From Reichenbachiella carrageenanivorans (GTDB lineage: Bacteria; Bacteroidota; Bacteroidia; Cytophagales; Cyclobacteriaceae), in the NCBI RefSeq assembly GCF_025639805.1, contig NZ_CP106735.1, forward strand, positions 1,428,001 through 1,492,000: DNA of 64,000 nt, given 5' to 3'. Below are positions 18,034 to 36,918 of the stretch, piece after piece; the first letter of the stretch is position 1; every line of letters starts with the position of its first letter. The translations under genes were made by a program, and so were the position numbers. Under the pieces are notes generated by a model, which saw only the letters and a program-made list of their open reading frames with translations, did not search any database and was not told the origin of the DNA.

Positions 18034-18080
18034 CTTGTGCTTTTCAATTTGGATTGATTTTACAGAGATATAATTGTACG

Positions 18081-19040: not shown

Positions 19041-19041
19041 T

Positions 19042-20175: not shown

Positions 20176-21233
20176 TGGAATGATTGCATCACGTTATAAA
20201 TGGTTTTAGCTGACTTCTCCCAAGAGAATTGGTCTTTTTGATAATTCCCTTTTTGGATGAGTTTGTTTCTCAGATCTTCGGAGTCCAAAACTTTGTTTAA
20301 ATAGTTAGTTAGTTCCATCTCGTTAGAAGGGTCAAAGCTAAATGCTGCATTACCCACTACTTCAGGTAGGCTTGCGCTGTTAGAGCAAATCACTGGACAT
20401 CCAAAATGCATAGCTTCAATAGGGGGTATTCCAAATCCATCGATCACCGAAGGGTAAACAAATACGGTAGCTTGGCTATATAGTTTGGCTAGTTCTTTAT
20501 CTGTAATATGCCCAGTCAATTTAATCCTTTTGTTTTTTTGTAAGTATTGGTTCAATTCTGAGTTGATATCTATTCGTTTTGCACCTATCAATATTAGGTC
20601 ATATTCATCTGAACATTTTATTTTTTCAAATGCTTTAATGAGAACGAGCGGATTCTTATTTAATGGACCTAAAATGTAGGGTCTTTTTTTACTATTATCT
20701 TCATGAATGGCATCTAGGTTTATTTTTTGTAGAATACTAGGAACGGCGCAGCCTGCAACGGAAATTTTTTTATCATTTATTTTAAAGTGTTGTAAAATTT
20801 GATTTTTAGAGTATTCACTTACTGTAATGATATGCTGAGCCCGTTTAATTATGAGAGGCATTATACTTCTGTAATAAGCTAAGTTTTTTTTGGTATGGAA
20901 ATTATGTGTTTTCCAAATTATATCATGAATTACCACAATGTTTCTCGTGAGTAAAGGGGCGAGGTTTTCGAGGTTTAGTAAAAGGTGATCATTTTTGAAT
21001 TTTTTTCTTATAAAATAGGGGAGTTCTACTTGCTCCCAAGTTATTCCCTCAGACCTTCCCACTTGGTTAGGGTTTAAAAGTTGAGCGGTTTCATGATGTT
21101 TTATATCATTATTAGCTATGAAATTAACCTGAGGATCAATAGAGGAAAGCTGTTCTGCAATTTCAATTGCATATCTTGTCACACCCGTAATAGGATGCTG
21201 AGAAAGGAACTTAGAATTTACTAGTAATGGCAC
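20172..21233 (-). CDS. Glycosyltransferase family 4 (GT4, mannosyltransferase-like)
   Basis: A 353-residue GT-B enzyme that starts at GTG 21233. It carries [20 protein letters not shown] at the N-terminus, [16 protein letters not shown], and a C-terminal half with [19 protein letters not shown] and [20 protein letters not shown]. This arrangement resembles the WbaZ/MtfB group that often use GDP-mannose, but the donor is not proven. It overlaps the GT42-like gene by 23 bases and the next GT4 by 4, so the three are translationally coupled. Confidence 0.88.
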
Positions 21234-22128
21234 ATTTGTAATTGAAAAGTGAGAATTCAGGATATAAAGAAGATTGTTTATTGCCTAGATAAATGGAGAG
21301 CCCCTTTTCTTGAAAGTATTTTTTATTTAAAAAACTTAATAGCTCTGGCATAGTTACAAAATTTTGAGATTTGTCCAAAGTGTGATGTTTTTTGCTTTTT
21401 ATAGCGCTAATGGTGTGTTGAAGATGTTCTTGCTGCTTCGAGTAACGTTCATTTAAGTAAAAACTCGAGCCGCCGTCTAAATCAATACCACATAGTACAA
21501 CTTTTTTATAGCCAGAAAAAAATGCAAAAAAAAGAAGAAAGATAAGGGAACCGATCTTTCTTGGAATATACTTAAAACTTCCTTCCTTTATCATTCCTAA
21601 ATTTTCATACATCTTTATGGATCGTAAATAATCTTCGCAGCTTCGACCTGTCAATTGTATTTCTTTTGCTATGTAGAGATTAGGTTTTAATTCGGGATCA
21701 ATCAAAGGTACTGTTTCCTGCCAATACCCTTCGAAAATATCCTTTAGAATGATTGGGGTTTTTTTATATGCTTTTTTGTTGGTGTTGAGTAGATTAATTT
21801 GTTCTTTTCTGATATTTAGGTTTGATGCACATTCAACACTGTAAAATGTTGGTACATGGTTGTGAATTGGCCAATAATTGAACCCAATACTGTCTTGATC
21901 TGAAATTTCTTTCCACTGGGCTGCGGAATAATTATTTATTGAATCACCTGAACCTAAAATAAATATTGTGTCACTGGTTTTATATCTGCCAATTTCTAAT
22001 TCGGTTAAGTTGGGAAGGTTGTATTTATTTGCAATTTTCTTGATTTTAAGCAATTCTTGAACATAAAATTTGAGGGCGGAGAGCCTCATATATAATTGCT
22101 TTGAGTTATTGTATAGAAAATTTATCAT
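21211..22128 (-). CDS. GT42-like putative sialyl/nonulosonyl transferase
   Basis: A 305-residue protein. After an N-terminal helical extension, TIFILGSGDSINNY (about 54-67) matches the nucleotide-binding start of CST-type (GT42) sialyltransferases, which begin with an I-x-GNGPSL-like loop. GYKKVVLCGIDLDGGSSFYLN (about 206-226) matches the second GT42 hallmark, a GID...GSS(Y/F) block, and an HH pair (248-249) lies where the general-base His region is expected. The family transfers CMP-activated sialic acid; here it would suit the CMP-nonulosonate made by the neighbouring operon. DUF115/MptE-like proteins share part of this fold and are the main alternative. It overlaps both neighbours by 23 bases. 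Confidence 0.55.
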   Translation of the reverse strand: MINFLYNNSKQLYMRLSALKFYVQELLKIKKIANKYNLPNLTELEIGRYKTSDTIFILGSGDSINNYSAAQWKEISDQDSIGFNYWPIHNHVPTFYSVECASNLNIRKEQINLLNTNKKAYKKTPIILKDIFEGYWQETVPLIDPELKPNLYIAKEIQLTGRSCEDYLRSIKMYENLGMIKEGSFKYIPRKIGSLIFLLFFAFFSGYKKVVLCGIDLDGGSSFYLNERYSKQQEHLQHTISAIKSKKHHTLDKSQNFVTMPELLSFLNKKYFQEKGLSIYLGNKQSSLYPEFSLFNYKCAITSKF

Positions 22129-23524
22129 TTAACCACTTTGTTAGAGGCTTTTTCCGCATATAGTAGACTAGACCAATGCTAACTATTATCAACGAAGAGT
22201 TCATTAATAATGAACGATAATTATCTTCGATGCCAAAATGTACAAAAGCTGAACACAAACTTACAATGTAAAAATAAATTATAAAATTATAGCTGTACGC
22301 TTGTTTGAAGAAGTATCTAGAAAAAACAATTACACACAACATGAGCACAAGGAAAGAAATTAGAGTAGAGACCGCTGCAGCCATTATACCAAAGAGAGGG
22401 ATGTATATAATGTTTAAAAAAACATTTATTAAGCCACTTAATAAGGTCAAAAAAGGGAGAAATTTATTTTTTTTGAAAAAGAAAATACTATTTACAAAGT
22501 AGGTGTATATGCCATAATTATAGTATGCTAAAAGTATAATAATGGTAATTCCAATACTGTTTGTATATATATCTGGTGCAAACCACTCAATAACAAATGG
22601 AATGATCGATATCCCTATTAAAGTAGCAAATCCGAGGCCGAGTACCCAAATGTCATAGTAATTATTAATTAAAGTGTTGACTTTTCCATTGGTTTCATTC
22701 ATTAGTGAAAAGTATGTTGGGGTCCAGGCCTTGTTTATAGCAATAATCATATAACTCATTACAGAGGCTAATGTATAGCCAAGGTTATAAATTCCTAAAT
22801 CTTCCATTGATAGATATTTAGCTAAAACAAACCTGTCTGCAGAGTTATTTAGATACAAGCCAAGTAGGTGGAAGAGGGTTGGAACACCTAACAACAACGA
22901 TTCTTTTAGATATTTGAATTTGAATTTTGGTTTAAAGTGCTTTAGGTAGCTCGCTCCGTAAATTAGAGCTGAAATTGCTTGAGCAATAATTATCGCAATA
23001 AAGTACCCATTAATTCCTTTTTCTTGAAATACCACGAGGAGTATAATTAATGCGGCACTAGTTAAAAATATAGAAGTTTCAATTATTGCTGCTTTCAGGA
23101 AATTTTTATGGGCTGTAAAATAGGTGATAGACATTTGATTGAATATCATAAGCACTACTATTCCCAAGGCTAAAAGAGGAGGGAATGAAGGTTCTATTCC
23201 TAGTGTATCATGGAATAAAAGCCCTCCTCCTATCCAGAAGATAGCAAAACAGAGTAAAGACTCTAATACTAAAAAAATATTGAGGGTGAATAGTAAAGTT
23301 CCTTGATCGATGTTTTTGTCATGAATTAGTCTGGTTTGACTTCCGTGAAAGCCTAGAATTACGACATTGAACATTAGGTTAATGATGACTTGTATATAAC
23401 CTACTGTACCATATTGAGCTAATGTTAAATGTGCTAAATAAATAGGCAATAAAAAAAAAGAAATTCCTTTTGAGAGGACTGTAGAGATCGTAAATATGAG
23501 AGATCCCTTTGCTACTTTATTCAT
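22106..23524 (-). CDS. wzx: Wzx-type oligosaccharide flippase
   Basis: A 472-residue polytopic membrane protein with about 12-14 hydrophobic segments and the N-terminal pattern KGSLIFTISTVLSKGISFFLLPIYL, shared by polysaccharide export flippases of the MOP superfamily. It would move lipid-linked repeat units across the inner membrane, working with the initiating transferase at 11861-13240 and the Wzy-like protein. It lies between the sialidase-like lipoprotein gene (9 bases upstream) and the GT42-like gene (overlap 23 bases). Confidence 0.88.
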   Translation of the reverse strand: MNKVAKGSLIFTISTVLSKGISFFLLPIYLAHLTLAQYGTVGYIQVIINLMFNVVILGFHGSQTRLIHDKNIDQGTLLFTLNIFLVLESLLCFAIFWIGGGLLFHDTLGIEPSFPPLLALGIVVLMIFNQMSITYFTAHKNFLKAAIIETSIFLTSAALIILLVVFQEKGINGYFIAIIIAQAISALIYGASYLKHFKPKFKFKYLKESLLLGVPTLFHLLGLYLNNSADRFVLAKYLSMEDLGIYNLGYTLASVMSYMIIAINKAWTPTYFSLMNETNGKVNTLINNYYDIWVLGLGFATLIGISIIPFVIEWFAPDIYTNSIGITIIILLAYYNYGIYTYFVNSIFFFKKNKFLPFLTLLSGLINVFLNIIYIPLFGIMAAAVSTLISFLVLMLCVIVFSRYFFKQAYSYNFIIYFYIVSLCSAFVHFGIEDNYRSLLMNSSLIIVSIGLVYYMRKKPLTKWLNDKFSIQ

Positions 23525-23533
23525 ATGAAGGGA

Positions 23534-24652
23534 TTAAAGGTTTGAGATAGTAAGCCTATTAAATACCAGGCTTCTAAATTTAGTTGCTTCTCTTGATTTG
23601 TAGTAATAGGTTAGTAGAAGTTCGCCGTCTTTTTCTAGAATGCTTGTATACGCAAAACTTGATTGTGCGTGATTTTCTATATGGGTAGGAGAGCTCCATG
23701 ATTCACCATTATCTTCGCTAATAGAGTAACTAAGAGGTGTTCTTGCATCAACATTGAGAATTCTTTCGGATGCTGTATTTACTTTTACATTATTCCAAAT
23801 TAAGATGAGTTGACCAGTTTCTTCAATTCTATATATAGAAGATGGGGATTCTGGGCTGTATAAACCAGAGTCAAAAGCTTCTTCCCAACGCCTGCCGTAA
23901 TTAGATGATTTTGCAAAATATATAGTACCAAGTTGTGTGCGAATTACAGCCATAAGATTACCATCATTAACCTCTATTATGCCAGGTTCCATTGCTGGCC
24001 CAGATACACTTATTTCATTTTCACTTAATGCCCAGGTTTCGCCTAAGTCGGAACTTATATAAAATTTAATTGACTGATTTTTGTATTGGTTTTCGATACT
24101 ATTAGTGTATGCAAAGGGTACTATAATGTCATTATTTGACAGTTGAATTACCCTATCGTTATTAACAACATGATATAAATGTTCTTTTGAAATTACACGT
24201 ATGTTATTAGACCAATTTTGCCCGTTGTCTCTGGATTTAATGTAGCAAATTTGTGTCTTGTCATCGCTTATCCGTCGAATAAAAAACATAAGTATATTCC
24301 TTGCATCAATTCTTATAAGTGAAGGAGAGAGATTTCTATAATAGTTATCATTCAATACATTTAAAGGCGTTGACCAAGTGATACCATTGTCATGACTATA
24401 AGAGGCTCTGATAGTTGCCTTAGAAAAATCAGATTCATTTTCATAAGCTGTATAGCAAAGGAGAAAAGTACTATCCATGAGTTTGATTAAAGAAGCTTCG
24501 CTATTTCTATAAAATGTACTATCAGCTTGAATAATAACTGTACCGTTAATGTTTATGTTTTGAGGTGTTATATCTTCGTTTATAGAATTAGTACAACTGC
24601 TTAAATAAGTGATAAAAATTAAAAGAAGATAATATCGTCTTGGCTGATTCAA
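23534..24652 (-). CDS. Sialidase-like lipoprotein with Asp-box (BNR) repeats
   Basis: A 372-residue exported protein. The signal peptide ends at LSSC (Cys20), so it should be lipid-anchored. Asp boxes of the form S-x-D-x-G-x-x-W occur at about 86-93, 140-147, 200-207 and 312-319, with a degenerate one (SSNYGRRW) at 249-256. They imply a six-bladed sialidase-type propeller. The usual N-terminal RIP motif is not obvious, so catalytic activity is uncertain. Candidate arginines include those in FFIRRI and AVIRTQ. The start must be the TTG at 24652 because an in-frame TAG lies immediately upstream. It sits between the CMP-sugar synthetase and the flippase, inside a nonulosonic acid operon. Confidence 0.75.
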   Translation of the reverse strand: MNQPRRYYLLLIFITYLSSCTNSINEDITPQNININGTVIIQADSTFYRNSEASLIKLMDSTFLLCYTAYENESDFSKATIRASYSHDNGITWSTPLNVLNDNYYRNLSPSLIRIDARNILMFFIRRISDDKTQICYIKSRDNGQNWSNNIRVISKEHLYHVVNNDRVIQLSNNDIIVPFAYTNSIENQYKNQSIKFYISSDLGETWALSENEISVSGPAMEPGIIEVNDGNLMAVIRTQLGTIYFAKSSNYGRRWEEAFDSGLYSPESPSSIYRIEETGQLILIWNNVKVNTASERILNVDARTPLSYSISEDNGESWSSPTHIENHAQSSFAYTSILEKDGELLLTYYYKSREATKFRSLVFNRLTISNL

Positions 24653-24723: not shown

Positions 24724-25416
24724 TCAATATAAGGAAGAACTTGATACAATTAGACATTCTGCTATTTTCCAGTCCAAATATGTGTCAATATCTACGGAAT
24801 CTAATTCTGACATTATATATTTCTTTTTCTTTTGGAGGTTAAAACCGTCTTTTTTGAAAGTAGTAGCATTGATTATATAAATTGCACCGTTATATTCCCA
24901 TACTTTAGGGCAATCCTGCCTTCTAATGAAATTACCTTCTTTAGATTTAATTAACATATTATTTTCATCCTCTTCAAATAGAACATAATATGGGTTTGAA
25001 TCTGTTTCTTTTACAGAAACTACCATATCCAAATCACGAGAATATATGGCCAATGCTTCTTTTATATGGTTGGCATTGCGGAACGGTGATGTTGGTTGCA
25101 ATAAAATAATTTGCTCAATTGAAATGGCATTATGTTTTTCATAAAAGGATAATGCATGGTCTATAACCTCTTTAGAACTAGAAGTGTCGGTTGAGAACTT
25201 TTGAGGTCTAAGAAAAGGTACTTTCAAGCCAATAGTTTCAACAACTTTCTTAATCTCTTCAGAATCAGTGGATACTATAATTTCATCATCATTAAAGACG
25301 GCTCTTGCTGCTTCAATGGTATACTGAATTAATGGTTTTCCCTTGAGTAATTTAATGTTTTTTCCAGGGATTCCTCTTGAACCACTTCGAGCTGGTATGA
25401 TCACGAGTCTATTCAT
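24724..25416 (-). CDS. legF: CMP-nonulosonate (N-acylneuraminate/legionaminate) cytidylyltransferase
   Basis: A 230-residue enzyme that joins CTP and a nonulosonic acid to give the CMP-sugar. The N-terminus holds the P-loop-like IIPARSGSRGIPGKN and KLLKGKPLIQYTI. QPTSPFRN is near 88, and the EYNGAIYI segment is near 173. The real start is the ATG at 25416, which shares one base with the TGA of the upstream gene (TGATG), implying coupling. It could equally be named neuA or pseF by sequence; the legF name follows the legB/legC-type neighbours. Its product is the expected substrate of both the CMAH-like protein and the GT42-like transferase. Confidence 0.88.
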   Translation of the reverse strand: MNRLVIIPARSGSRGIPGKNIKLLKGKPLIQYTIEAARAVFNDDEIIVSTDSEEIKKVVETIGLKVPFLRPQKFSTDTSSSKEVIDHALSFYEKHNAISIEQIILLQPTSPFRNANHIKEALAIYSRDLDMVVSVKETDSNPYYVLFEEDENNMLIKSKEGNFIRRQDCPKVWEYNGAIYIINATTFKKDGFNLQKKKKYIMSELDSVDIDTYLDWKIAECLIVSSSSLY

Positions 25417-26450
25417 CAAAATTGTATGTGTTTTACATCTTCTTGAGCTTTTGCAAAATCGTCGTGTTTGCCAATATCTAACCAATAACCCCTTAGTGGG
25501 TAGCTGATAACTTTGTTTCCCTGATGGATGAGTTCATCCATCAGGTCGGTGGCATTAAAAAAAGCCCCTTTCGGTATTTTACTGATATGTTCTTTCTTTA
25601 GCAAATAAATTCCTCCATTTGAGTAATAAGTTATAGTTGGCTTTTCTGCAAATGACTTGACCTCTGTGCCTTCTGTTTTTAATATGGCATAAGGGATTTC
25701 CACCTTATAGGGAATTGAAGCGATGGACATATCTGCAACTTGGTCGACAAAATCTTTATAAAAATCCTCAAAATCTATATTGGTTAATAAATCTGAGTTC
25801 ATTATTAAGACTGTGTCATTTTCTAAATTTTCCACTAGAGCTAAAGCACCGATAGTACCAAGGGCTTGATCTTCTTCTATATAAGAAATGTTTACCCCAT
25901 GTTTGTCACCACTACCAAAGTAGTCTATCAATTGTTGGCCAAGATACTTTATGGAGATGTTTAAGTTTTTTATTCCAAAAAGATTTAATCGATCAATATT
26001 GTATTCGATGATGGGTTTATTATTGACCATTAAAAGTGGTTTAGGAATATTGTCTGTAAGTGGTCTTAGTCGAGTCCCTTTTCCTCCAGCCATGATAAGT
26101 GCATCTATGGGCAGGAATGATTTTTTCCCTTTTAAATTAATAAAACTCAACAGCTTATCTGTTTTATCGACAAGTGGGATGAGACTTAAAGCCTTTTTTT
26201 TATATGATTTTATTTGTTCAATGGAGTAGTCATTTTTCACTATTTTTGAAAAGTCCATGTTCATGATCTTTTCAACAGATTCGGAAAGTTCTATTCCCCC
26301 TAAAAGCCCTCGTCTTATATCACCATCAGTGATTGATCCCAATAATTGTTGATCTTGTCTTATTACAAATATGGTTTGAGAATCTGACATATTTAACCTT
26401 TGAAGAGCTTCTCTGACAGAGGACGTATTTGGAATTAAATAATTATCCAT
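25416..26450 (-). CDS. CBS-domain sugar-1-phosphate nucleotidyltransferase (PtmE-like)
   Basis: A 344-residue fusion. Residues about 1-115 are a CBS pair (first block VREALQRLNMSDSQTIFVI, with SITDGDIRRGLL). Residues about 118-344 are a nucleotidyltransferase with LIMAGGKGTRLRPLTDNIPK and IIEYNIDRL. This CBS-nucleotidyltransferase layout is that of Campylobacter PtmE, which makes the GDP-glucosamine used in legionaminic acid synthesis, so a similar role is likely. ATG at 26450 is chosen because it follows the upstream stop by 8 bases and starts at the CBS domain. The CBS pair suggests allosteric control by a nucleotide. Confidence 0.8.
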   Translation of the reverse strand: MDNYLIPNTSSVREALQRLNMSDSQTIFVIRQDQQLLGSITDGDIRRGLLGGIELSESVEKIMNMDFSKIVKNDYSIEQIKSYKKKALSLIPLVDKTDKLLSFINLKGKKSFLPIDALIMAGGKGTRLRPLTDNIPKPLLMVNNKPIIEYNIDRLNLFGIKNLNISIKYLGQQLIDYFGSGDKHGVNISYIEEDQALGTIGALALVENLENDTVLIMNSDLLTNIDFEDFYKDFVDQVADMSIASIPYKVEIPYAILKTEGTEVKSFAEKPTITYYSNGGIYLLKKEHISKIPKGAFFNATDLMDELIHQGNKVISYPLRGYWLDIGKHDDFAKAQEDVKHIQF

Positions 26451-26458
26451 GAGATTTT

Positions 26459-28165
26459 TTAGTGTATATATTTTGGGTTTTGATCTAATACATTGCAAGC
26501 ACCACAATAGGCACTATATCTGAAATTTTTTTTTGCAATGTAAATGTTCGTAAAATGATACCAAAAGTCTTGATTGTATACATTAGGAATACGAGAAATT
26601 CTGCATTGGAAGCCAATACTTAAGTCTTCCCAAGGTAAAAAATTATCAATTACACACATTAAGCTTTCCGTTCGTACCTTGATTCTGAGAATACGTTTAT
26701 CCATATCAGGGTTGGACATTAACGGTGGGATACAATCTAAATGGACTTGTTCGATATTTGGAGAGGCAGCAGAAAAGTCAATTATGTAATTAGCCCCTAT
26801 TTGTTCAAAGTTATCGTTGGTTAATTGTAGTACTAGTATAAGATTATCCTTGAAGCCTGATTGTTCAAAATACTTTTTGACACTTTCAGTGTTTTCCTTG
26901 TATCCAGATTTATAATTATTGATATAATTTTCAGTGTACGAATGGTCGGTGTTATAAATGCGCTTGCAGTCTCTTGAATATAAAAGAGAGTCATTGCCAA
27001 GAACAAGTGTGTCATTCTTGATTGGGTCTATGACCTTGATGTCAGCATATTTTTTGTTAATAAAATTTCTCACTCTTTCAACAGAATTTTTATCATTAGC
27101 TTCCTTGATGATATTATCACGTGCAGCGGATTCTGTAAAAAAACCTGCATATGGGTAATATATTTTGGGAGTGGTCAAACCAATTATATCCATGTTTTTC
27201 ACTAAAATTGCATTTTTATTTCGCTGAATTACTTTATCAATTTCTTCTTTTGAGTAGTCTTCAAAGCAAACAGGAAAGCCAGAAGCACCAGCGGCAAATG
27301 ATGTGAAAAGTACATCGAGATTTTGAGGAAGTGAAAACGAGTTAATGTAGTTGCTATCGACCGTAAGCAACAATTTTTTGTTTCCAACATTTAGATATAA
27401 ACCACTATCATCTCTGAAGTCTCCAGATTTTAGAACTGAAAATTGTATATCAACATTTTTAACTTTGTATACATTTTTAAAATCAAGAGGTATTATATTG
27501 TTAAATCCAGCGTGTCTGAGCACCTTTTCTGATGATTTACTTTTAAAGTTTGCAGTAACGATGAGTTGATCCTGTGATACATATTCCTTCAGTGTTTCAA
27601 CATGTAAATGATCAGGGTGATTGTGCGATATATAAATAATATCTGCACTTTTTAGCATGTCAATGGCATCTTCTTTGGGAGGGTATTTTAACCACCAGCC
27701 ATTCATGAAAGCCGATCCTATCAACCACGGGTCTGTAATAATACTCACTCCGTTGAACAAAATTCTAATACAGGCGTGTGAGATAAAATCTATTTGACAT
27801 GGATGAATATTTCTGAACAAGGACGGAAATTCTATTGATTCTTGAACATTCTCAACGTAGATGAATTCACTATCCTCAGTGAATTTTAGTTTCGTTTTTT
27901 CTATTTCATTGTCATACTTAAGTGTTGTCAAATTAAGCACCCAACCGTGTAATGGACATACTGCATTTTCACCTTTTTGAATTAGTCGGCCTGCATTGTG
28001 ATCGCAGATATTGTTGACAACAAATACTACTTTTTCATCATGATACATGATGAAATGGTCTCCGATTTTATTAATACCATTCTTCAGCGATTTTTTATCA
28101 ATGCGGATATCAGCTGTATCTAAACGTTCAGATTTTAAAAAACTCGTGTTTTCTATTTCAATCAT
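26459..28165 (-). CDS. CMP-N-acetylneuraminate hydroxylase (CMAH)-like Rieske/metallohydrolase-fold protein
   Basis: A 568-residue protein, close to the length of mammalian CMAH. The Rieske [2Fe-2S] ligands are visible as C54-x-H56 and C70-x2-H73 (CDH...CPLH). A metallo-beta-lactamase-like domain follows with DPWLIGSAFMNGWW (145-158) and HNHPDH (181-186). CMAH carries the near-identical blocks DPWLIGPAF.RGWW, ISHLHSDHL, FAGGASGFP (here FAAGASGFP, 290-298), P.IY.P.AG.F (333-343), and WEDLSIGFQ...FWYHF near the C-terminus. CMAH hydroxylates the N-acetyl of CMP-Neu5Ac to N-glycolyl using electrons from cytochrome b5; no b5 or reductase gene lies nearby. The gene sits between legG and the ptmE-like gene, so a CMP-nonulosonate is the likely substrate. 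Confidence 0.85.
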   Translation of the reverse strand: MIEIENTSFLKSERLDTADIRIDKKSLKNGINKIGDHFIMYHDEKVVFVVNNICDHNAGRLIQKGENAVCPLHGWVLNLTTLKYDNEIEKTKLKFTEDSEFIYVENVQESIEFPSLFRNIHPCQIDFISHACIRILFNGVSIITDPWLIGSAFMNGWWLKYPPKEDAIDMLKSADIIYISHNHPDHLHVETLKEYVSQDQLIVTANFKSKSSEKVLRHAGFNNIIPLDFKNVYKVKNVDIQFSVLKSGDFRDDSGLYLNVGNKKLLLTVDSNYINSFSLPQNLDVLFTSFAAGASGFPVCFEDYSKEEIDKVIQRNKNAILVKNMDIIGLTTPKIYYPYAGFFTESAARDNIIKEANDKNSVERVRNFINKKYADIKVIDPIKNDTLVLGNDSLLYSRDCKRIYNTDHSYTENYINNYKSGYKENTESVKKYFEQSGFKDNLILVLQLTNDNFEQIGANYIIDFSAASPNIEQVHLDCIPPLMSNPDMDKRILRIKVRTESLMCVIDNFLPWEDLSIGFQCRISRIPNVYNQDFWYHFTNIYIAKKNFRYSAYCGACNVLDQNPKYIH

Positions 28166-28183: not shown

Positions 28184-29296
28184 TCATAGCTGAACATCGA
28201 GCAATTTTTCAACAATTTTGGCGGTTGCTCCTCCATTGTAATATATATTTTCTGTTTGGAGCTTGGGACTTTGTTGAATTATTATAATTTGTTTCAAAAT
28301 TTTTTCACTTGAAAAAGGCACATTATTGACATTTTTCCCCATGGTTCTACCTTTTTGACGATCTCCTAAATTAATTACATATTTTCGAAAAGACGCAGCT
28401 TCAATAATACCACTCGAGGTATTTCCCAATAGGAATGAGCAGTACTTCATACATGTAAAGTATCCTTGTGTACCAAAATTCTCTATGAGGATAACTCTTT
28501 TATGCTGCTCGCCAAATAGGAGTAACTGTTCACGAATGATGTTACCTGCTGTGTCTGCATTTGGCATAGTGATGACGACTTGGTAGCTGTTCAGTATTTG
28601 TGATAATGCTGCTATGGCCGCTTGTACATATTCTCGATTCTTTTCTAGGGCTACGGTTTCAGGGTGTATAGTAACTAAAATAGTGGGTATGTTTAAATCA
28701 ATCTTGAATTTGATGTTAAATTCATCTTTGTTTAAAAGTTTTATAGACTCCAAATTATCTAGACTCAGCGCGCCAACATTCCAAATAAATTTATTATTTT
28801 CTGTCAGTTCTTCTACACGTTTAGCATAGACTTCCGTTGCAGTGAAATGGTACTTTGAAAATAGCGTAATGGCATGTCTAAACTTGTCATCTATTGCCCC
28901 TAAGGTAGTCTCTCCTCCATGTAAGTGTGCAATAGGAATGTTAAAGGGGACAGATGAAGCTACAGCAGCAAACATTTCATATCGGTCACCCAAACAAAAG
29001 ACAAGATCAATTTCACGTTGATGATTTTTCCAAAATGCTGCAAACTTCGTCGAAGTTAGACCCATTGAAGTGGCTATGCTTTCCTCACTATCGTTGGCCA
29101 GTACAGTATCTATTTCAGCTCTAATTTTGAATCCATCCTCGTAGATATTTTGTATGGTATACCCATGAAATTTGGAGAGGTGCGTGCCAAAAACAATGAG
29201 ATTCAGGTCGAATTTTCCGTGTGCGTCTAACGCCTTGAGTAATGGTAGGTAGATGCCATAGTCAGCTCTTGAACTTGTTAAAACGAATACTTTCAT
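28184..29296 (-). CDS. legG: Hydrolysing UDP-sugar 2-epimerase (LegG/NeuC type)
   Basis: A 370-residue member of the UDP-GlcNAc 2-epimerase superfamily. It begins MKVFVLTSSRADYGIYLPLL, the NeuC/LegG type start, has LHGGETTLGAIDDKFRHAIT near 130 and carries LGNTSSGIIEAASF near 300. Enzymes of this branch hydrolyse UDP while inverting C2, giving free ManNAc or the 2,4-diacetamido 6-deoxymannose needed by the synthase. The ATG at 29296 is preferred over a TTG three codons upstream because it gives the typical N-terminus and follows the neuB/legI stop with a 1-base gap. Confidence 0.88.
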   Translation of the reverse strand: MKVFVLTSSRADYGIYLPLLKALDAHGKFDLNLIVFGTHLSKFHGYTIQNIYEDGFKIRAEIDTVLANDSEESIATSMGLTSTKFAAFWKNHQREIDLVFCLGDRYEMFAAVASSVPFNIPIAHLHGGETTLGAIDDKFRHAITLFSKYHFTATEVYAKRVEELTENNKFIWNVGALSLDNLESIKLLNKDEFNIKFKIDLNIPTILVTIHPETVALEKNREYVQAAIAALSQILNSYQVVITMPNADTAGNIIREQLLLFGEQHKRVILIENFGTQGYFTCMKYCSFLLGNTSSGIIEAASFRKYVINLGDRQKGRTMGKNVNNVPFSSEKILKQIIIIQQSPKLQTENIYYNGGATAKIVEKLLDVQL

Positions 29297-29297
29297 T

Positions 29298-30320
29298 TTA
29301 CTCAAAATCTGTATAGTTCAATATTTCACCCTTGCCTAAGTCTCGGCGCATTTTTTTACCCAATACACTATAGATTTCCATGGGCGATATACCATTTCCA
29401 GGTCGAATCATAGTGAGATCACCGAATGCTATCGTGTCACCAGCTGCTAAAGGTTTGTTACAATGAATGCTTTTACGGGCTACTTTCATATTGGCATGCT
29501 CTGATGGAGAAGGCATTTTAACGGCACTGCCGAGTGCTAATTCAATATTTCTAATGGCCATCACCATGTCTTTCAATTCTCGTGGTTCGAGCGAAGCTTT
29601 ATGGTCCGGACCCTCCATGTTTTTGTCTAATGTGAAATGCTTTTCTACAATGGTAGCGCCCTTAGCCACAGCTGCAATAGGTACTTCTATTCCTAGAGTG
29701 TGATCTGAATAGCCATAATTAACGTCGAATGCGGCACCAAGTGTGTTCATTGCATTCAAATTTACATCTTTCATTGGTGTCGGATATTCTGTATTACAAT
29801 GTAGGATGGAAATTTTATGTCTTGGTAGACCAGCTTGAATGAATACATTAAAGGCATTTTCTACGTCACCTATTGTACACATCCCTGTAGAGAGAATAAC
29901 GGGTTTTCCTATTTTGGCAATTTTTTCCAAATAGGGCAAGTTGGTTATTTCCCCAGAGGGAATTTTGAAAAGATCGATTCCTAAATTTACTAAAAGATCA
30001 ATACTTTCTAAATCAAAAGCAGTGGACAGGAATTTTATTCCTGATTGATTACAATAATCTATAAGAATTCGGTGGGTATCTACATCTAGTTCGAGCATTT
30101 TTAGCATATCGAATTGGGTGTTACCCTTTTTACCGATATTTCTTTGTTGGTACTCTGCTTGCTTTGCACTTGAACTGACTAGTTTTTCTGCTTTGAAAGT
30201 TTGAAATTTCACATAATCCACACCAGCTTTTACTGCTGCATCTATTAATTTTTTAGCGAGTTCTATATTTCCATTGTGGTTAACTCCAGCCTCTGCTATG
30301 ATCAGTGTACTATTTTTCAT
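29298..30320 (-). CDS. legI: Nonulosonic acid (Neu5Ac/legionaminate) synthase
   Basis: A 340-residue NeuB-family enzyme that condenses phosphoenolpyruvate with a ManNAc-type sugar to form the nine-carbon acid. The TIM barrel begins IIAEAGVNHNG and includes KFQTFKAEKLV, KIPSGEI and GYSDHTLGIEV, with the C-terminal SAF (antifreeze-like) domain ending in KMRRDLGKGEIL. The gene overlaps the acetyltransferase by 4 bases. By sequence it could be NeuB or LegI; the legB/legC/ptmE-like context favours legionaminic-type sugar. Confidence 0.92.
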   Translation of the reverse strand: MKNSTLIIAEAGVNHNGNIELAKKLIDAAVKAGVDYVKFQTFKAEKLVSSSAKQAEYQQRNIGKKGNTQFDMLKMLELDVDTHRILIDYCNQSGIKFLSTAFDLESIDLLVNLGIDLFKIPSGEITNLPYLEKIAKIGKPVILSTGMCTIGDVENAFNVFIQAGLPRHKISILHCNTEYPTPMKDVNLNAMNTLGAAFDVNYGYSDHTLGIEVPIAAVAKGATIVEKHFTLDKNMEGPDHKASLEPRELKDMVMAIRNIELALGSAVKMPSPSEHANMKVARKSIHCNKPLAAGDTIAFGDLTMIRPGNGISPMEIYSVLGKKMRRDLGKGEILNYTDFE

Positions 30321-30952
30321 TTTATCATCTTAATAGGAATTCCCGTATATGTGCCTCTTGTATCAATATTTCTATTTACAAGACTCATGGCACCAACAAT
30401 AGCATTACTGACTATTTTTATTCCCTGATTAACAATTGTACCACTACCAATAAATGTAGCATTCTTGATGATGCAATTGCCATTTATTACCGTGTTTGTC
30501 GAAATGTGATTATGATGATTAATCACAGTATCATGCTCGATAAGCGCTTTAGTATTAATGATATTATTGATTCCAAGTTTCACATTCGCATTGATCAATG
30601 CATGATGCATGATGACCGTACCGTCTCCTATGGTTGCCCCCTTACCTATATGGCTTAGTGGGGAGATTATGGTAGGAAAGGTGCCGCCAACACTTTTCAC
30701 TTTATTATATAATTCAATCCTTGTATTGGCGTTTTTGATGTGCCCAACAGTAATTACAAAATGCTGATATTTCTCTATTAATTTAGGGATATCACTGTCA
30801 TTTCCAATTACCTTATAGCCTAACACATGAGTTTCATGGAGTTCGGGCTTGTCTAATATACCAACAATATTGAATAATCCAGTTGTCTCGATTACATCAA
30901 TGACAGCATGACAATGTCCACCTCCCCCAATCAAGACTATATCCTTTTTCAT
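30317..30952 (-). CDS. NeuD/LegH-type sugar acetyltransferase (left-handed beta-helix)
   Basis: A 211-residue protein with an N-terminal Rossmann-like domain (DIVLIGGGGHCHAVIDVIE) and a C-terminal hexapeptide-repeat beta-helix from about residue 90 (IGKGATIGDGTVI and later turns). This is the PglD/NeuD fold. It probably N-acetylates the 4-amino group of the UDP- or GDP-linked intermediate, with His in ALIEHDTVIN as the likely catalytic base. It overlaps both legC and legI by 4 bases. Related enzymes can O-acetylate sialic acid instead. Confidence 0.85.
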   Translation of the reverse strand: MKKDIVLIGGGGHCHAVIDVIETTGLFNIVGILDKPELHETHVLGYKVIGNDSDIPKLIEKYQHFVITVGHIKNANTRIELYNKVKSVGGTFPTIISPLSHIGKGATIGDGTVIMHHALINANVKLGINNIINTKALIEHDTVINHHNHISTNTVINGNCIIKNATFIGSGTIVNQGIKIVSNAIVGAMSLVNRNIDTRGTYTGIPIKMIK

Positions 30953-32097
30953 ATTTTAACACTACTTGGCACATTTACGATTCGATCTTCTAGCCATTGC
31001 GCATTGGTTTGCTCATCCACATAGCAACCAGAAAACATGAACATCTTGTGTAGCAATGTCCAAATAGGACGGCACATAACGCCTGCCTCATTTAATTTAG
31101 CAAGAAATAAGTCGCGTTCATCTCTATCACTTAAGCATAGTGCGTTTAGCCAGTAGTTAGAAATGGCATTTGATGGCTCTAAAACAATGTTCAAATCATT
31201 TTTTAAACCAAATGCTATATAGTCTTTGGCTAATTGTCGTTTGTTCTCCAAAAACATGGGTAACTGTTCTAATTGCGCGCAGGCCATGGCCGCATTCAGA
31301 TTGGGCATTCTGTAGTTATATCCGATTGCATCGTGGGTATATTCCCAAGGATGTGATATTTTGGCTGTAGTGGTCCAATGTTTTGCCTTGTTAGCAAGAC
31401 TTTGGTCGTTGGTGATAATCACACCACCACCACCGCATGTTAAGGTCTTGTTCCCATTAAAGCTAAAAGCTGCTGATTGACCAAATGTGCCTGTATGCTT
31501 ACCTTTATAGTAACTTCCGATTGATTCGGCGGCATCTTCTACTACCACTATATTGTGTCTATTACATAAACTGACTAGTTCATCGATTCTTATGGGGTGT
31601 CCAAATGTATGCATGGGGACAACTGCGCGTACGACTTTACCTGTACGTTTGTTGATACATAAGTCACCTTTTTGTAATGTTTGATTTTCTAAAAAAGTTT
31701 TAACACTTTTTACAGAGAGACCCATAGTGTCCCGATCGACATCTAAAAAGACTGGTTTAGCTCCGCAATATGAAATAGCATTGGAAGTGGCAATAAAACT
31801 TAAGGATTGAGTGATTACTTCATCTTCCTGTTGTACTCCAGCCAACAATAGACACATGTGTAAGGCAGCTGTACCGTTAGTTGTCGCGACTGCATATTTT
31901 GCGCCTGTGAGGCTGCAAATCATTTCTTCAAAGCGATTGACATATTCACCTACCGAAGAAACAAAAGTAGAGTCTATGGCATTCATTACATATTTTCGTT
32001 CATTCCCTATAAATCTAGGCTCATGTAGGGAAATAAATTCTTCAGTAGAAGAGAAAGACTTTCGGATAAAGCCAATAAGCGCTTGATACTTTTCCAT
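30949..32097 (-). CDS. legC: LegC-type PLP-dependent aminotransferase (DegT/DnrJ/EryC1)
   Basis: A 382-residue PLP enzyme. The N-terminal half has EPRFIGNERKYVMNAID, the LegC-family hallmark, then TNGTAALHMCLLLAG and EDAAESIG near 187. The PLP lysine is in FSFNGNKTLTCGGGG. The protein would transaminate C4 of the 4-keto-6-deoxy intermediate made by the neighbouring dehydratase. It starts 3 bases after the legB stop and overlaps the acetyltransferase by 4 bases. Confidence 0.9.
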   Translation of the reverse strand: MEKYQALIGFIRKSFSSTEEFISLHEPRFIGNERKYVMNAIDSTFVSSVGEYVNRFEEMICSLTGAKYAVATTNGTAALHMCLLLAGVQQEDEVITQSLSFIATSNAISYCGAKPVFLDVDRDTMGLSVKSVKTFLENQTLQKGDLCINKRTGKVVRAVVPMHTFGHPIRIDELVSLCNRHNIVVVEDAAESIGSYYKGKHTGTFGQSAAFSFNGNKTLTCGGGGVIITNDQSLANKAKHWTTTAKISHPWEYTHDAIGYNYRMPNLNAAMACAQLEQLPMFLENKRQLAKDYIAFGLKNDLNIVLEPSNAISNYWLNALCLSDRDERDLFLAKLNEAGVMCRPIWTLLHKMFMFSGCYVDEQTNAQWLEDRIVNVPSSVKI

Positions 32098-32100
32098 ACT

Positions 32101-33282
32101 TTACATTTTGCTATCCAAGTATTTACCAGTTTCCTTATGCCCAAAATCTGGAATCATATCATGAAATAGGGATACAATGTCTTTTTTGTTCCAATTTAGA
32201 TTGATTTTCATTTCAGCAATGCGATTAGAAAAGTGATCGAGTTGGGAGTCATCAAAGTTAGGCTCGTTTTTGATTACGCCTAACTTTTCATAGCGATCCA
32301 TGTCTAGTTCTTCGTTCTTCGTGAAGAATTCTTCAAAATCTTTTTCTCCAGTAGTGTCACTTTGGACAAATAGACATGGCCATTGTCCTTTATTCGGAAG
32401 TGTTTTGACGAGTTTTCTAGCTTGTTCTTCTGATTTACAAGGATACGGTTCATAACCGATGCCTTTTAGGTAATTGACTGCAATTTCAGAAAAAGTAATA
32501 AGGTGCAGGTCTTCACTTAGCTTTGGGAAATATATTTCACGATTTTGGCCAAAAATACAGGACATTAAACAAAGTTCACCTGATTCTTGAGGAATAACAA
32601 AGTATCGCTTTACATCAGATGGAGCTACAATGGGTTGTTTTTTTTGAATTCTTTGATTGAAGCCATGTAATAGAGAGCCATCTGAGAAGGCAACATTGGC
32701 AAATCGAGCTGTTGAAATATCAATCTCCTTGCTTCTTCTCATCAAAAACATCTCCATTATACGTTTGGAAGCACCCATCATATTAACTGGGTTGGCAGCC
32801 TTGTCCGTAGAAACACAAAAGTATTTTTTTACTCCTTTTTTGATTGATTGTTGGATGGTTTTATCAGTGTTGAAAATGTTTACATCAATCATTCGCATCA
32901 GCGTAAAAGGGTCTTTTTCACTTCGTACATGCTTTAACGCAGAGAGGTTCAATACATAATCATATTGGCCATCGGCTTCAATAAAAGCATCGTACTCAAG
33001 AGAGCCTATATCTAGTGCATAAGTGCTGAAATCACCTTCAATATATCCAAACGAACTTCGTATATCCCGAACGAGCTCAACCAAATTGTTTTCTGAGATG
33101 TCAACAACATGGAGTTTTTTAGGCTTTCTTTTAAAGATCTCCTTTGAAACTGCTTGGCCTATTGAACCAGCCCCTCCAATTACGAGAAAGGATGAATTTT
33201 CAACTTCTCTATTTAATTGGAAGCCATAAGTTTTAAGGTCTTGAATAAATAGTAATTCAGTACGTCCTATGATATCCAACAT
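32101..33282 (-). CDS. legB: NDP-HexNAc 4,6-dehydratase (LegB-type, Polysacc_synt_2)
   Basis: A 393-residue SDR with ATG at 33282. The NAD loop is in FLVIGGAGSIGQAV, with VVDISENNLVELV and DIRSSFGYIEGDF typical of the group that pairs with LegC. The Met-Met-Gly segment NMMGASKRIMEMF holds the catalytic lysine. It should remove water from UDP- or GDP-GlcNAc to give the 4-keto-6-deoxy sugar. A longer form starting at 33321 would overlap Wzz by 25 bases; the shorter start matches the family N-terminus (MLDIIGRTELLF). Confidence 0.85.
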   Translation of the reverse strand: MLDIIGRTELLFIQDLKTYGFQLNREVENSSFLVIGGAGSIGQAVSKEIFKRKPKKLHVVDISENNLVELVRDIRSSFGYIEGDFSTYALDIGSLEYDAFIEADGQYDYVLNLSALKHVRSEKDPFTLMRMIDVNIFNTDKTIQQSIKKGVKKYFCVSTDKAANPVNMMGASKRIMEMFLMRRSKEIDISTARFANVAFSDGSLLHGFNQRIQKKQPIVAPSDVKRYFVIPQESGELCLMSCIFGQNREIYFPKLSEDLHLITFSEIAVNYLKGIGYEPYPCKSEEQARKLVKTLPNKGQWPCLFVQSDTTGEKDFEEFFTKNEELDMDRYEKLGVIKNEPNFDDSQLDHFSNRIAEMKINLNWNKKDIVSLFHDMIPDFGHKETGKYLDSKM

Positions 33283-33296
33283 AGTAAGTGATTTTG

Positions 33297-34376
33297 TTAT
33301 GTTTTTTTCAATATTAGGCATAGAATGCCTCCAATGCCAAACCCCACAAACGTAAAAAGCAATAAAATTATGCTTCGCTTTGGTTGACTTTTGTCTTCAG
33401 GTATCCTTACAGGCTCTAATACTGTAAACACAGGCGTTTGTTCCTTCAATTGTATTTTAGCCTGCTCTACCTGTGTAGACAGTCCTTTATAAACATCAAA
33501 AGTAATCTCATACTCCTGTTCTATATTTTTCAATTCGATTTGACCAGTAGCAGAGGTCACATTCATGTTTCGGTCGGTAGCACGGGCTAGTTTGTATTGA
33601 ATTTTTTCGAATTTATTTTTCGCTTCTTCGTATGTCCCTTGTATAAACTCAAGGTTTTCTAAAGATTTATCCGTTTTGTATTTGATGACGGCTTCTGTAA
33701 CCATCAGTTCAATTTTTTTAGCAATCTGTGCTGCCGCGTAGGGGTCGGGCATTTCAACAGTAACCCCTAATATACCCGTTTCGGCATCTATTTCAATCGA
33801 AATGCGCTCTTTGAATTTCTCAATGATGCCCCAGTCTTTTTTTGACAATCGATAAAAAGGAGAAGTGTTTTCTTTGATTATTTCCTCAGCAGAAAATGCT
33901 TTTTTGATGGTGCCTGGCAGGCCTATGGTATACTTCATGACATAGCCTAGAAGGGTAGGCGTTTCTACTTCCTTGAAGTAATGAAACGAAGTGGTGTGTA
34001 GGTCAAGTTGCTCGAAATATACGGTATCATTCATCACCTCTAAAATAAAAGGCAGGCTGTTTACAATTTCAGGGTAGAGCTGCGGAGTGAGTACGCCAGA
34101 TCCCGCACCTCCCATGCTACTCAAATCTACCCCTGCGAGTCCTGCAAGACCTGCAAGTCCTCCCATATTTGGCATTTGTCCTTCCTGACTTTCGGGGAGT
34201 AATTTGCTAGAGGCTTCGTACTCTACGGGGCTGGTAAATGCAATGATCAAACCGATGAGAGCAAATACGCCAGCGACTTTGGCAATGAATCGTCGTCCAG
34301 CCCAAATGGTTTTGGCTAGTTCTACTAGATCGATTTCGTCGTCTTGTATGATTTTATGTTCTTTTTCCTCTGCCAT
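33297..34376 (-). CDS. wzz: Wzz-type chain-length/co-polymerase protein
   Basis: A 359-residue inner-membrane protein with membrane segments near residues 30-50 and 336-357 and a periplasmic coiled-coil region between. A Gly/Leu-Ala repeat (GGLAGLAGLAG) lies near 72-82. It ends with EPVRIPEDKSQPKRSIIL, the Wzz hallmark before the second membrane helix. No kinase (BY-kinase) domain is present. It controls polymer length together with Wzy and Wza. It starts 1 base after the wza stop. Confidence 0.9.
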   Translation of the reverse strand: MAEEKEHKIIQDDEIDLVELAKTIWAGRRFIAKVAGVFALIGLIIAFTSPVEYEASSKLLPESQEGQMPNMGGLAGLAGLAGVDLSSMGGAGSGVLTPQLYPEIVNSLPFILEVMNDTVYFEQLDLHTTSFHYFKEVETPTLLGYVMKYTIGLPGTIKKAFSAEEIIKENTSPFYRLSKKDWGIIEKFKERISIEIDAETGILGVTVEMPDPYAAAQIAKKIELMVTEAVIKYKTDKSLENLEFIQGTYEEAKNKFEKIQYKLARATDRNMNVTSATGQIELKNIEQEYEITFDVYKGLSTQVEQAKIQLKEQTPVFTVLEPVRIPEDKSQPKRSIILLLFTFVGFGIGGILCLILKKT

Positions 34377-34377
34377 T

Positions 34378-36918
34378 TTATTTGCTAACGATTTGACTAA
34401 CGATCAATGCGATGGTGGCTATGCTCGATGCCATGGCTACCCAAGCTTGTGGGCTTAGTGGTTGTTTTTCGGGCTTTTTAGGTACTACGATCTCCATGCC
34501 TGGTTCTACTTGCGGGTAGTCTCTAAACCATAAGAAACTTTGGGTTTGAGCTGCAGACCCATTGGCATAGATGGCATATGACTTTGATTTTTTTGCACGT
34601 TGGTCAAACCCTCCAGCACTAGAGATATAATGTTTGAAGCCTGAGCCTTTGTTGTGTTGTATGTTACTAGGGTAGAGTACTTCGCCTCGGACACGTACTG
34701 TTTGAAACAGACGAGGGATACTTAAAATATCTCCTTTTCTGAGAATCAAGTCATATTTAGAGCCTGGAGATTCTATGATCTTTTCGAGGTTAATACCAAT
34801 GGCTTCTTGTTGTCTAAATATTTCCAAACTGTCACTCAATGAAAAGCCTTCTTTTCGGAATCGGTAGGTTAAATCTTGGCGTCTGATTTCAGAGGCATCA
34901 TCATCAACCTTTACATCAGCGATTATATTTCCTTCTGCATCTCTCACATTTCCATTATGAGGGGTTTTATAATATTCCGTTCTACGGATGAGTGTGGCAC
35001 CCTTGGCATAGGCGTAGTTGGTCAAACCTCCTGATCTTTCTAGTAATGAAGAAATGCGTTCATCTTTTCTTTCTAGGGAATACTTACCAGGAAACTTGGT
35101 TTCGCCTTCTACTTCTACGATTTCTTGCTCTTGAAAGAAAGGGCTTTTTCGAATAACGACTAAATCGAAAGGTTGGAGCTTAAAATTTGAGGCCTCTGCT
35201 GATAAACTCAAGTCCTTGCTGATGGGGAAATTGAAAATCTCCGCAGACTTGTTGGCGTCACTTGTACTATCAGGATGTGTACGCCGGGCTACTTCTACAA
35301 ATGAGCGAGCAGCAGATTCTTTGAATCCACCGGAGCGATAGATCATGTCTTCTACAGTCATGTCTTTGGCATACCCTAAAGTGCCAGGTTTGAGTACTTC
35401 GCCTTCTATGGTGATGTTATAGGCCTCACGCATAGAATAAATTGATTCGAATCGAATGACATCATTGTTTTGCAAAAGCATATTGTCTGATCCGGCGATG
35501 ATTTTTTTTGGGTCGAAGGCCAGGTTGGATAAAGAAAAATCGTCGTTTCTTCTAATGATTACAGCACGTTCCATAAAAGTATCACCTCTTAGCCCATCAG
35601 CTTTTTTGAGTAGGTCGACTAAAGTCAACCCTTCTGTAAGTTCATATTGACCAGGGTTTAGGACAGGCCCCTCAATGGTCACGCGGCTTTTGAATTCTGT
35701 GGAAATTGTTGGGACTACGATTTCATCCCCGTTTTTCATTACAAAGGTGCTTCTTTCTTCTGGTGCAATGGATTTGACTACTCGGAAGTTGGATTCAGCA
35801 CGAATGACGTTGAGCGTGCCGCTATAGGCATTTTTAGCAAAACCTCCAGCAAAGTTGAGTAGATCCCCAAAAGTTTCGCCTTCTTTTAGCTCGTAGGCCG
35901 CGGGTCTTTTGATTTCTCCTTGGAAGCGTACACGATTGATGTAAGGCTTTACAATCACTACATCTTGGTCTTTTAGGGTGGTATTTTCGCCGAGCCCTTT
36001 GATAAAAAATTCATAAGCATCTAAGGTAGATATCAATTCTCTTTCTCTATAAACTTCAATTTGTCTTAACGACCCATTGATGGTAGGCCCTCCTGCATTG
36101 TACAAGGCATTGAAAACAGTACCAAAAGAAGTCAGGCTATAGGTACCGGGCTTGTGTACCTGTCCGATCACATGTATGCTGATGGTTCGGATTTGTCCTA
36201 AGGTCACATCGGCAAAAGAACTTCTACCGATGGTACTGTATATTTTTTTGAGTCGCGCAATGATCTTCGTTTTGGCTTCTTCCATTTTCAAGCCATTCAC
36301 GAAAATGGGTCCGATACTCGGTACGCGGATTGAACCTTCTGGAGATACGGTCACTTGATAGTTTTGCTCAGAAGCACCCCAGATATCTATGTAAAGTTCA
36401 TCTCCTGGCCCTAAGGTGTAGTTGGCAGGACTGGGCACGTTAAGGTTGGGTTCGAAAGTCAATTTAGACGCGCGGAAAAATTTCAAACCAAATACTTCTA
36501 GTCCTTGGTCATATATTTTTAGTGAGTCGTCTATTCCATTTTTAGCGCTATTTATAGACTCCATGGGAGACATGAGTTGCTCTACTTGAGCATCTCCTTC
36601 CATGGGGTTTGTTCGGGTTCTAGCGCCAGACATGGCAGGGCTGGTAGATTCACTTGCTTGTGCTTGTAAAATTTTACCGCGAAGCTTGGTGATGTCTGTA
36701 TCAGACATGCCACGCATTTTGGCCATCTGTACGAGTTGTTCTTCACTCATGCCACTAGACTCTAGTTTTTGGATTAATTGAGACATCTGATCTGGTGTCA
36801 GATTGTCTATATCTATGTTCTGAAGATTTTGTAAATCTGCAGCACTTTGCCCCTGTACAGTGGTGAACTGGCCTAGGGATATGGCTAATAGTAAGATACT
36901 TAAGAGTATGCGCCTCAT
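34378..36918 (-). CDS. wza: Outer-membrane polysaccharide export protein (Wza-like, SLBB domains)
   Basis: An 846-residue exported protein. A signal peptide (MRRILLSILLLAISLGQ) precedes a helical segment (about 25-95). Then come the Poly_export domain (YTLGPGDELYIDIWG near 166) and multiple SLBB domains, seen as repeated GEVLKPGT-like turns (VIGQVHKPGTYSLTSFGTV, IEGPVLNPGQYELTEGLT, VEGETKFPGKYSLE). A hydrophobic C-terminal helix ends the protein. It should form the export channel for the polysaccharide. Length is much greater than E. coli Wza, as is usual in Bacteroidota. Confidence 0.92.
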   Translation of the reverse strand: MRRILLSILLLAISLGQFTTVQGQSAADLQNLQNIDIDNLTPDQMSQLIQKLESSGMSEEQLVQMAKMRGMSDTDITKLRGKILQAQASESTSPAMSGARTRTNPMEGDAQVEQLMSPMESINSAKNGIDDSLKIYDQGLEVFGLKFFRASKLTFEPNLNVPSPANYTLGPGDELYIDIWGASEQNYQVTVSPEGSIRVPSIGPIFVNGLKMEEAKTKIIARLKKIYSTIGRSSFADVTLGQIRTISIHVIGQVHKPGTYSLTSFGTVFNALYNAGGPTINGSLRQIEVYRERELISTLDAYEFFIKGLGENTTLKDQDVVIVKPYINRVRFQGEIKRPAAYELKEGETFGDLLNFAGGFAKNAYSGTLNVIRAESNFRVVKSIAPEERSTFVMKNGDEIVVPTISTEFKSRVTIEGPVLNPGQYELTEGLTLVDLLKKADGLRGDTFMERAVIIRRNDDFSLSNLAFDPKKIIAGSDNMLLQNNDVIRFESIYSMREAYNITIEGEVLKPGTLGYAKDMTVEDMIYRSGGFKESAARSFVEVARRTHPDSTSDANKSAEIFNFPISKDLSLSAEASNFKLQPFDLVVIRKSPFFQEQEIVEVEGETKFPGKYSLERKDERISSLLERSGGLTNYAYAKGATLIRRTEYYKTPHNGNVRDAEGNIIADVKVDDDASEIRRQDLTYRFRKEGFSLSDSLEIFRQQEAIGINLEKIIESPGSKYDLILRKGDILSIPRLFQTVRVRGEVLYPSNIQHNKGSGFKHYISSAGGFDQRAKKSKSYAIYANGSAAQTQSFLWFRDYPQVEPGMEIVVPKKPEKQPLSPQAWVAMASSIATIALIVSQIVSK

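Follow-up and report, generated by a model that had tools for sequence, protein, structure and literature searches.

Introduction

The closest described relatives of the gene considered here are the CMAH genes. CMAH is reported in algae and bacteria in a passage of PMC8227644 that cites Peri et al. 2018, and the bacterial CMAH-like sequences of that study appear without demonstrated function in the citing passages of PMC8227644, PMC6288428 and PMC6724515; according to the second of these they include Helicobacter and their function was not investigated. The preliminary description of our DNA had likewise spoken of microbial homologues that are known but functionally unstudied, in agreement with what PMC6288428 and PMC6724515 say in those passages. 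Prokaryotes do not naturally synthesize N-glycolylneuraminic acid (Neu5Gc), as stated in a passage of PMC7845648. A more distant relative is NamH, the mycobacterial muramic acid hydroxylase, which makes N-glycolylmuramic acid (passages of PMC6481270 and PMC10050696) and carries an UlaG domain at the N-terminus and a Rieske domain at the C-terminus (PMC10050696, same passages). Here we analyse a CMAH-type gene in a stretch of 64,000 nucleotides of Reichenbachiella carrageenanivorans (contig NZ_CP106735.1, positions 1,428,001 to 1,492,000; the whole stretch is called the window).

That bacteria own CMAH-like genes is already known; what is new is the placement of one of them as a cassette in a cluster of the legionaminic acid (Leg) type, and because of this placement the predicted N-glycolyl-legionaminic acid is directly testable. 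Judging from its sequence and its neighbours, the window protein likely hydroxylates an N-acetyl group of cytidine monophosphate (CMP)-legionaminic acid, yielding CMP-N-glycolyl-legionaminic acid. It resembles the sequences of Peri et al. 2018, as far as the citing passages describe them, in being bacterial and without demonstrated function, and Helicobacter, named there, is found here too; it differs in being embedded in a leg-type cluster, and the co-localisation of the family with NeuB is measured here. Our searches of open-licence PMC papers listed neither a leg operon that contains CMAH nor N-glycolyl-legionaminic acid made by this enzyme.

The window protein and the CMAH family

26459..28165, minus strand, start ATG at 28165: CMAH-type protein, 568 aa
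Regions of the protein: Rieske, residues ~29-78; metallo-beta-lactamase (MBL) fold, ~121-389; conserved C-terminal part ending FWYHF

The full-length open reading frame (ORF) of 568 residues that the preliminary description had reported is present, but its strand, which had been left out, is the minus strand, the plus-strand frame across 26459-28165 being full of stops. The translated protein holds the quoted Rieske ligands (C54-x-H56, C70-x-x-H73) and the other quoted motifs (DPWLIGSAFMNGWW, HNHPDH, FAAGASGFP and FQ...FWYHF). Pfam places Rieske at residues 29-78 (24.6 bits, cut-off 20.3) and Lactamase_B_3 at residues 124-241 (40.1 bits, cut-off 24), and the AlphaFold2 (AF2) model has a pLDDT of 89 and a pTM of 0.88, such predictions being judged by confidence, secondary structure and library matches. 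The predicted role of the protein is that of N-acyl hydroxylase.

No model specific to CMAH came out of Pfam or NCBIfam, whether the query was the window protein or one of the vertebrate CMAHs tested, and membership was therefore tested directly by sequence comparison. A search of proteins for homologues at E<=1e-3 yielded 880, the best 120 of which have 38-47% identity across 89-100% of the query, several of them labelled 'CMP-N-acetylneuraminate monooxygenase' by their sources. Vertebrate CMAH records were retrieved with a probe sequence. BLASTP aligned the window protein with one of them at 29% identity over 583 columns (residues 26-555, E 5e-68); this partner (P0124) is named Physeter, and sperm whale CMAH is listed as nonfunctional in a passage of PMC8227644, so that the stronger evidence is the family-level profile result, which draws on 10 vertebrate sequences. 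Compared profile to profile with 33 bacterial sequences, taken from the best 120 of the 880 homologues, these gave a probability of 100 and an E value of 9.7e-78 over 504 columns. The number of homologues and the near full-length alignment to vertebrate CMAH argue against chance similarity, and the family membership claimed in the preliminary description is borne out by a profile match that spans nearly the whole protein and goes beyond generic Rieske and MBL motifs.

In a joint alignment of 17 sequences (10 bacterial, 7 vertebrate) C54, H56, C70 and H73, together with H181, H183, D185, H186 and D270, are invariant in 17/17 rows. Window protein and vertebrate CMAH share the order Rieske-N and MBL-C, colinear over residues 26-555, with invariant Rieske ligands and HxHxDH...D; they differ in that identity is only 29-31% in the alignments, that a long branch separates them, that other residues stand at 246-253, and that a LegC-type gene accompanies the window gene in its bacterial cluster, which makes CMP-Leg the likely substrate.

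Our first tree comprised the window protein, 30 of the 33 CMAH loci described below, 24 other homologues and 8 of at least 120 matches of the vertebrate probe; the loci left aside were L020 (lost in ORF picking), L028 (broken) and L033 (partial), and the second tree also omitted the long-branched L022. A fully supported branch divides the 8 vertebrate CMAHs from the bacterial rows, which include the window protein. The second tree places the window protein in a group of 22 rows (support 97/98), where the rows with a named source are Bacteroidota and Helicobacter and the remainder are metagenome proteins.

CMAH as an addition to a nonulosonate cluster

The gene stands in a surface-glycan cluster with the following further members.

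16720..21233, minus strand: Wzy_C polymerase/ligase, D-glucuronyl C5-epimerase-like protein and two glycosyltransferases, the rest of the surface-glycan cluster
21211..22128, minus strand: putative CMP-nonulosonate glycosyltransferase (predicted fold similar to GT42/Maf; without Pfam match)
22106..23524, minus strand: Wzx-type flippase (Polysacc_synt 81 bits)
23534..24652, minus strand: BNR/Asp-box sialidase-like protein (BNR_2 95 bits; sialidase chains E down to 2e-8)
24724..25485, minus strand: CMP-nonulosonate synthetase, NeuA/LegF-like (PF02348 93 bits)
25416..26450, minus strand: PtmE-like CBS + nucleotidyltransferase (PF00483 138 bits; CBS 21.7 bits, cut-off 24)
28184..29305, minus strand: NeuC/LegG-type epimerase (TIGR03568 387 bits, cut-off 236)
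29298..30320, minus strand: NeuB/LegI-type nonulosonate synthase (TIGR03569 485 bits, cut-off 400)
30317..30952, minus strand: NeuD/LegH-like acetyltransferase (TIGR03570 186 bits, cut-off 161)
30949..32097, minus strand: LegC-type aminotransferase (TIGR04181 525.6 bits, cut-off 420)
32101..33321, minus strand: PF02719 sugar-nucleotide dehydratase, putative LegB role (PF02719 148 bits)
33297..34376, minus strand: Wzz-like chain-length determinant (Wzz 47.8 bits)
34378..36918, minus strand: Wza-like export protein (Poly_export 70.8 bits, SLBB)

As the preliminary description had it, CMAH lies between a NeuC/LegG-type gene, here upstream, and the PtmE-like and CMP-sugar synthetase genes, here downstream. 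The stop of the NeuC/LegG-type gene is 18 bp before the CMAH ATG. PtmE is the name that we presume for the CBS + nucleotidyltransferase gene, whose likely ATG at 26450 lies 8 bp past the CMAH stop, the listed ORF starting from TTG 26507. The LegC, NeuB, NeuC and NeuD-type enzymes all exceed curated cut-offs, and the NeuB/LegI gene is the sole NeuB-family match of the genome search. For the NeuA/LegF-like protein the nearest NCBIfam model is PseF (154 bits, under the cut-off of 206), and for the dehydratase FnlA (82 bits) and PseB (72.5 bits) stay far under their cut-offs.

Within the genomes sampled, CMAH was found in 1/39 near genomes, in 1/295 family genomes (at E<=1e-40), and in 1/395 class and 1/395 phylum genomes, each time the window's own; these samples overlap, and because scoring in those for family, class and phylum was limited in most listed rows to 3 or 4 first-look candidates per genome, misses there do not prove absence. 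Apart from the window organism's own, 38 near genomes were compared; 3 of them, each from its family, hold a NeuC homologue (E<=1e-40), and in 3/3 of these relatives NeuB-NeuC-PtmE-NeuA are contiguous, neuC and ptmE abutting, without CMAH. The order in Chitinophaga filiformis, Wza...LegC-NeuD-NeuB-NeuC-PtmE-NeuA-sialidase-Wzx, is that of the window without CMAH (compared from LegC to Wzx, plus the leading Wza), its CMAH being on another contig than its nonulosonate cluster. Because the relatives and C. filiformis have the core without CMAH at this place, CMAH is an addition exactly at the neuC-ptmE junction.

Across 16720-36918 the G+C is 0.36-0.43 in the genes upstream of CMAH and 0.30-0.35 from CMAH onward (window 0.395); a drop in G+C is common in acquired glycan loci. 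A BNR sialidase-like gene adjoins neuA both in the window and in the nonulosonate-making cluster of C. filiformis (L045:3319-4551); the window protein has a lipobox-like start by inspection and no NCBIfam family over cut-off. For the ORF at 21211-22128 (305 aa) we count 46 further homologues, of which one carries a precomputed Pfam domain (PF01973); going by the predicted fold, these proteins may be a new family of CMP-nonulosonate transferases. The D-glucuronyl C5-epimerase-like protein lies at 18081-19040 (PF06662, 124.6 bits).

Distribution of bacterial CMAH and its tie to NeuB

Scanning genome contigs gave 40 loci, of which 33 are CMAH proper (one partial, one broken); the 7 weak loci L035-L041, with short matches in the MBL part, are not counted among them. 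The 33 come from Bacteroidota, SAR11, Prochlorococcus, SUP05, Marinimicrobia, Helicobacter, Bradyrhizobium, Pannonibacter and others. NeuB was detected in 27/33 CMAH genomes, and since 9/14 control genomes have it as well, its presence alone says little. Its position is more telling: NeuB lies <=15 kb from CMAH in 10/33 genomes, with 0.8 expected by chance, and in 7/30 against 0.64 expected once kin are collapsed, these counts being based on positions transcribed by hand and rounded genome sizes. LegC is above its cut-off in 6/33 CMAH genomes and in 1/14 controls. Clusters of the Leg type are found in Pontibacter ummariensis, with LegC over cut-off 10 kb from CMAH, and in Lacimicrobium alkaliphilum, with LegB over cut-off.

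The CMAH of Pannonibacter indicus lies ~2 kb from NeuB in a NeuC-NeuB-NeuA set (L025:9935-15239). This organism has no LegC-type gene over cut-off and its NeuB scores 348 bits, under the 400-bit cut-off; from its gene content it is a candidate for bacterial Neu5Gc itself. Because the family occurs with both Neu- and Leg-type sets, the C5 N-acyl group, common to both sugars, is favoured as the target of CMAH. In an alphaproteobacterium (L019:10007-13354) the synthase gene near CMAH, at a distance of 0.7 kb, is of the PseI type for pseudaminic acid (463 bits against a cut-off of 340).

Other neighbours recur. An S-adenosylmethionine (SAM) methyltransferase of ~230 aa (326 in L020 as picked) stands beside CMAH in 6/33 loci: directly upstream in L026, L011, L002 and L004, with gaps of -4, -4, 13 and 4 bp, upstream in L020 and downstream in L015. 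Pfam Methyltransf_11 is found in 3/6 of these proteins. A possible role for the methyltransferase is O-methylation of the hydroxyl on the newly formed glycolyl group. Helicobacter cynogastricus and H. baculiformis have two CMAH homologues each and H. cetorum one (L016, L030, L034; G053, G067, G071), on other contigs than their NeuB genes, the L034 copy being without the start of the Rieske domain. CMAH homologues are also borne by open-ocean cells of Prochlorococcus (L010) and of the SAR11 group (L007, L013, L021, L023, L027, L028, L031, L033), and five of the latter (L021, L023, L027, L031, L033) have the same neighbours: an epimerase, WecB-type in L031, and members of two more gene families.

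Proposed function

The preference for CMP-legionaminic acid over CMP-Neu5Ac (Neu5Ac, N-acetylneuraminic acid) in the preliminary description holds as far as sequence can test it, the only NeuB of the genome being in the cluster and LegC being above its cut-off. We infer the activity, substrate, position of hydroxylation and product as follows. CMP-Leg5,7Ac2 would be assembled by the PtmE-like protein, the 4,6-dehydratase, LegC, the NeuD/LegH-like protein, NeuC/LegG, NeuB/LegI and NeuA/LegF. Electrons from a cellular ferredoxin or cytochrome would reach, through the Rieske cluster (C54, H56, C70, H73), the metal site in the MBL fold (H181, H183, D185, H186, D270). There O2 would be activated and the methyl of an N-acetyl group would become CH2OH; as animal CMAH acts at C5, this is also the most likely position here. 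Transfer of the sugar onto a surface polysaccharide would follow, catalysed by the GT42/Maf-like enzyme, and the Wzx flippase would move this polysaccharide.

A modified CMP-Leg at m/z 654.3 is given for Tannerella forsythia UB4 in a passage of PMC6388019. Its mass fits CMP-Leg5,7Ac2 plus one O, for which we compute an [M-H]- of 654.17 and a free acid of 350.13 Da. Friedrich et al. 2017 are said to have described a 350-Da, possibly N-glycolyl, Leg. The fit makes N-glycolyl Leg plausible in bacteria, and hydroxylated CMP-Leg may exist in other species, but that CMAH is its maker does not follow.

Several observations weigh against hydroxylation of CMP-Leg by the window protein. The vertebrate CMAH branch is very long (2.86 changes per column), so that the tree cannot tell an equal substrate and the substrates may differ. 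Residues 246-253 read KSGDFRDD in bacteria and MDGVHPEMD in vertebrates, and K246 aligns with the CmlA glutamate that we take to be the metal ligand E377, its place counted by hand; on the alignment, HxHxDH...D is conserved and the ligand set around residues 246-253 may differ from that of animal CMAH. The NCBIfam scan did not match the dehydratase to the classical LegB model TIGR04180, and the cluster genes scanned hold no electron donor. T. forsythia is anaerobic, and the passage of PMC6388019 on its modified sugar identifies no modifying enzyme. Among the CMAH genomes, 23/33 (many draft or partial) have no NeuB <=15 kb on the same contig, and 6/33 have no detected NeuB, as is the case in the 7.8 Mb of Bradyrhizobium sp. 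138 (G063, L026).

Alternative explanations

The rival that survives best, though we hold it improbable, is that the window enzyme hydroxylates an earlier or different N-acetyl sugar, either a nucleoside diphosphate-linked or free hexosamine intermediate of the nonulosonate pathway or a cell-wall sugar as NamH does. It gains from the product of NamH, a distant relative, from the 6/33 genomes just mentioned, and from several CMAH copies that stand alone by housekeeping genes (e.g. L005, L030, L034). NamH (Rv3818-like) resembles the window protein in its MBL fold, its Rieske domain and its N-glycolyl product, but differs in domain order. As stand-in for NamH we used an uncharacterised NamH-type Nocardia plasmid protein, built as MBL-N, SCP2_Rv3818 and Rieske-C; mainly the MBL part matches (22% identity, E 3e-13; by profile E 1.7e-16 over 209 columns), and good alignment is limited to it. 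The window protein lacks this architecture, having the CMAH domain order and no SCP2 domain, which sets it apart from the NamH type, and its gene lies within a nonulosonate cluster while its family co-localises with NeuB.

Less probable still is a genuine CMP-Neu5Ac hydroxylase, the pathway making Neu5Ac and the product being Neu5Gc. NeuB and NeuC do exceed the N-acetylneuraminate-synthase and NeuC cut-offs, but so do those of Pontibacter, which stand beside LegC, and the window cluster holds LegC above cut-off, a dehydratase and a PtmE-like gene. None of these three is needed for Neu5Ac.

We give very little credence to an UlaG/UPF0173-type MBL-fold hydrolase with a Rieske appendage rather than an oxygenase. 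The profile search of the PDB puts the diiron oxygenases FrsH (E 6.6e-13) and CmlA (1e-9) on top, above NAPE-PLD (1.7e-7) and the UPF0173 hydrolases (0.002-0.0035); the same two oxygenases lead the Foldseek ranking for the AF2 model, but by VIA-align they are not set apart from hydrolases. The UlaG/UPF0173 model PRK00685 gives 24.7 bits, below its cut-off of 144, so that the better match to an UlaG-like family feared in the preliminary description was not seen, and vertebrate CMAH matches nearly the whole length of the window protein. CmlA and FrsH, themselves MBL-fold oxygenases, have no N-terminal Rieske, a CmlA-type Rhodococcus protein having CmlA_N in its place, and their natural substrates differ.

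Equally remote is a recently acquired, inactive or unexpressed passenger gene: the window organism is the sole carrier among the 295 family genomes sampled and CMAH is absent from the same core in 3 relatives, but the ORF is open and full length, the ligand residues are retained, and the spacing of the co-directional genes is tight (18 bp, 8 bp).

Implications

With CMP-Leg hydroxylation as the likely role, CMAH in a leg-type cluster narrows the testing to one enzyme and one sugar. It also puts a bacterial CMAH on offer for structural work, in a family without reported structure in the corresponding passage of a 2016 review (PMC4819959). A wider view, which we find quite possible while leaning somewhat against it, is that bacteria own an O2-dependent route to N-glycolyl nonulosonates, in which a mobile CMAH cassette in leg, neu and perhaps pse clusters, or acting in trans, gives N-glycolyl-legionaminic acid in the window organism and possibly true Neu5Gc in Pannonibacter indicus. 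If this were true, an N-glycolyl group on surface nonulosonates would not be an animal signature and Neu5Gc-like antigens could come from microbes as well, which would bear on the origin of human anti-Neu5Gc antibodies and on the bacterial side of the history of CMAH.
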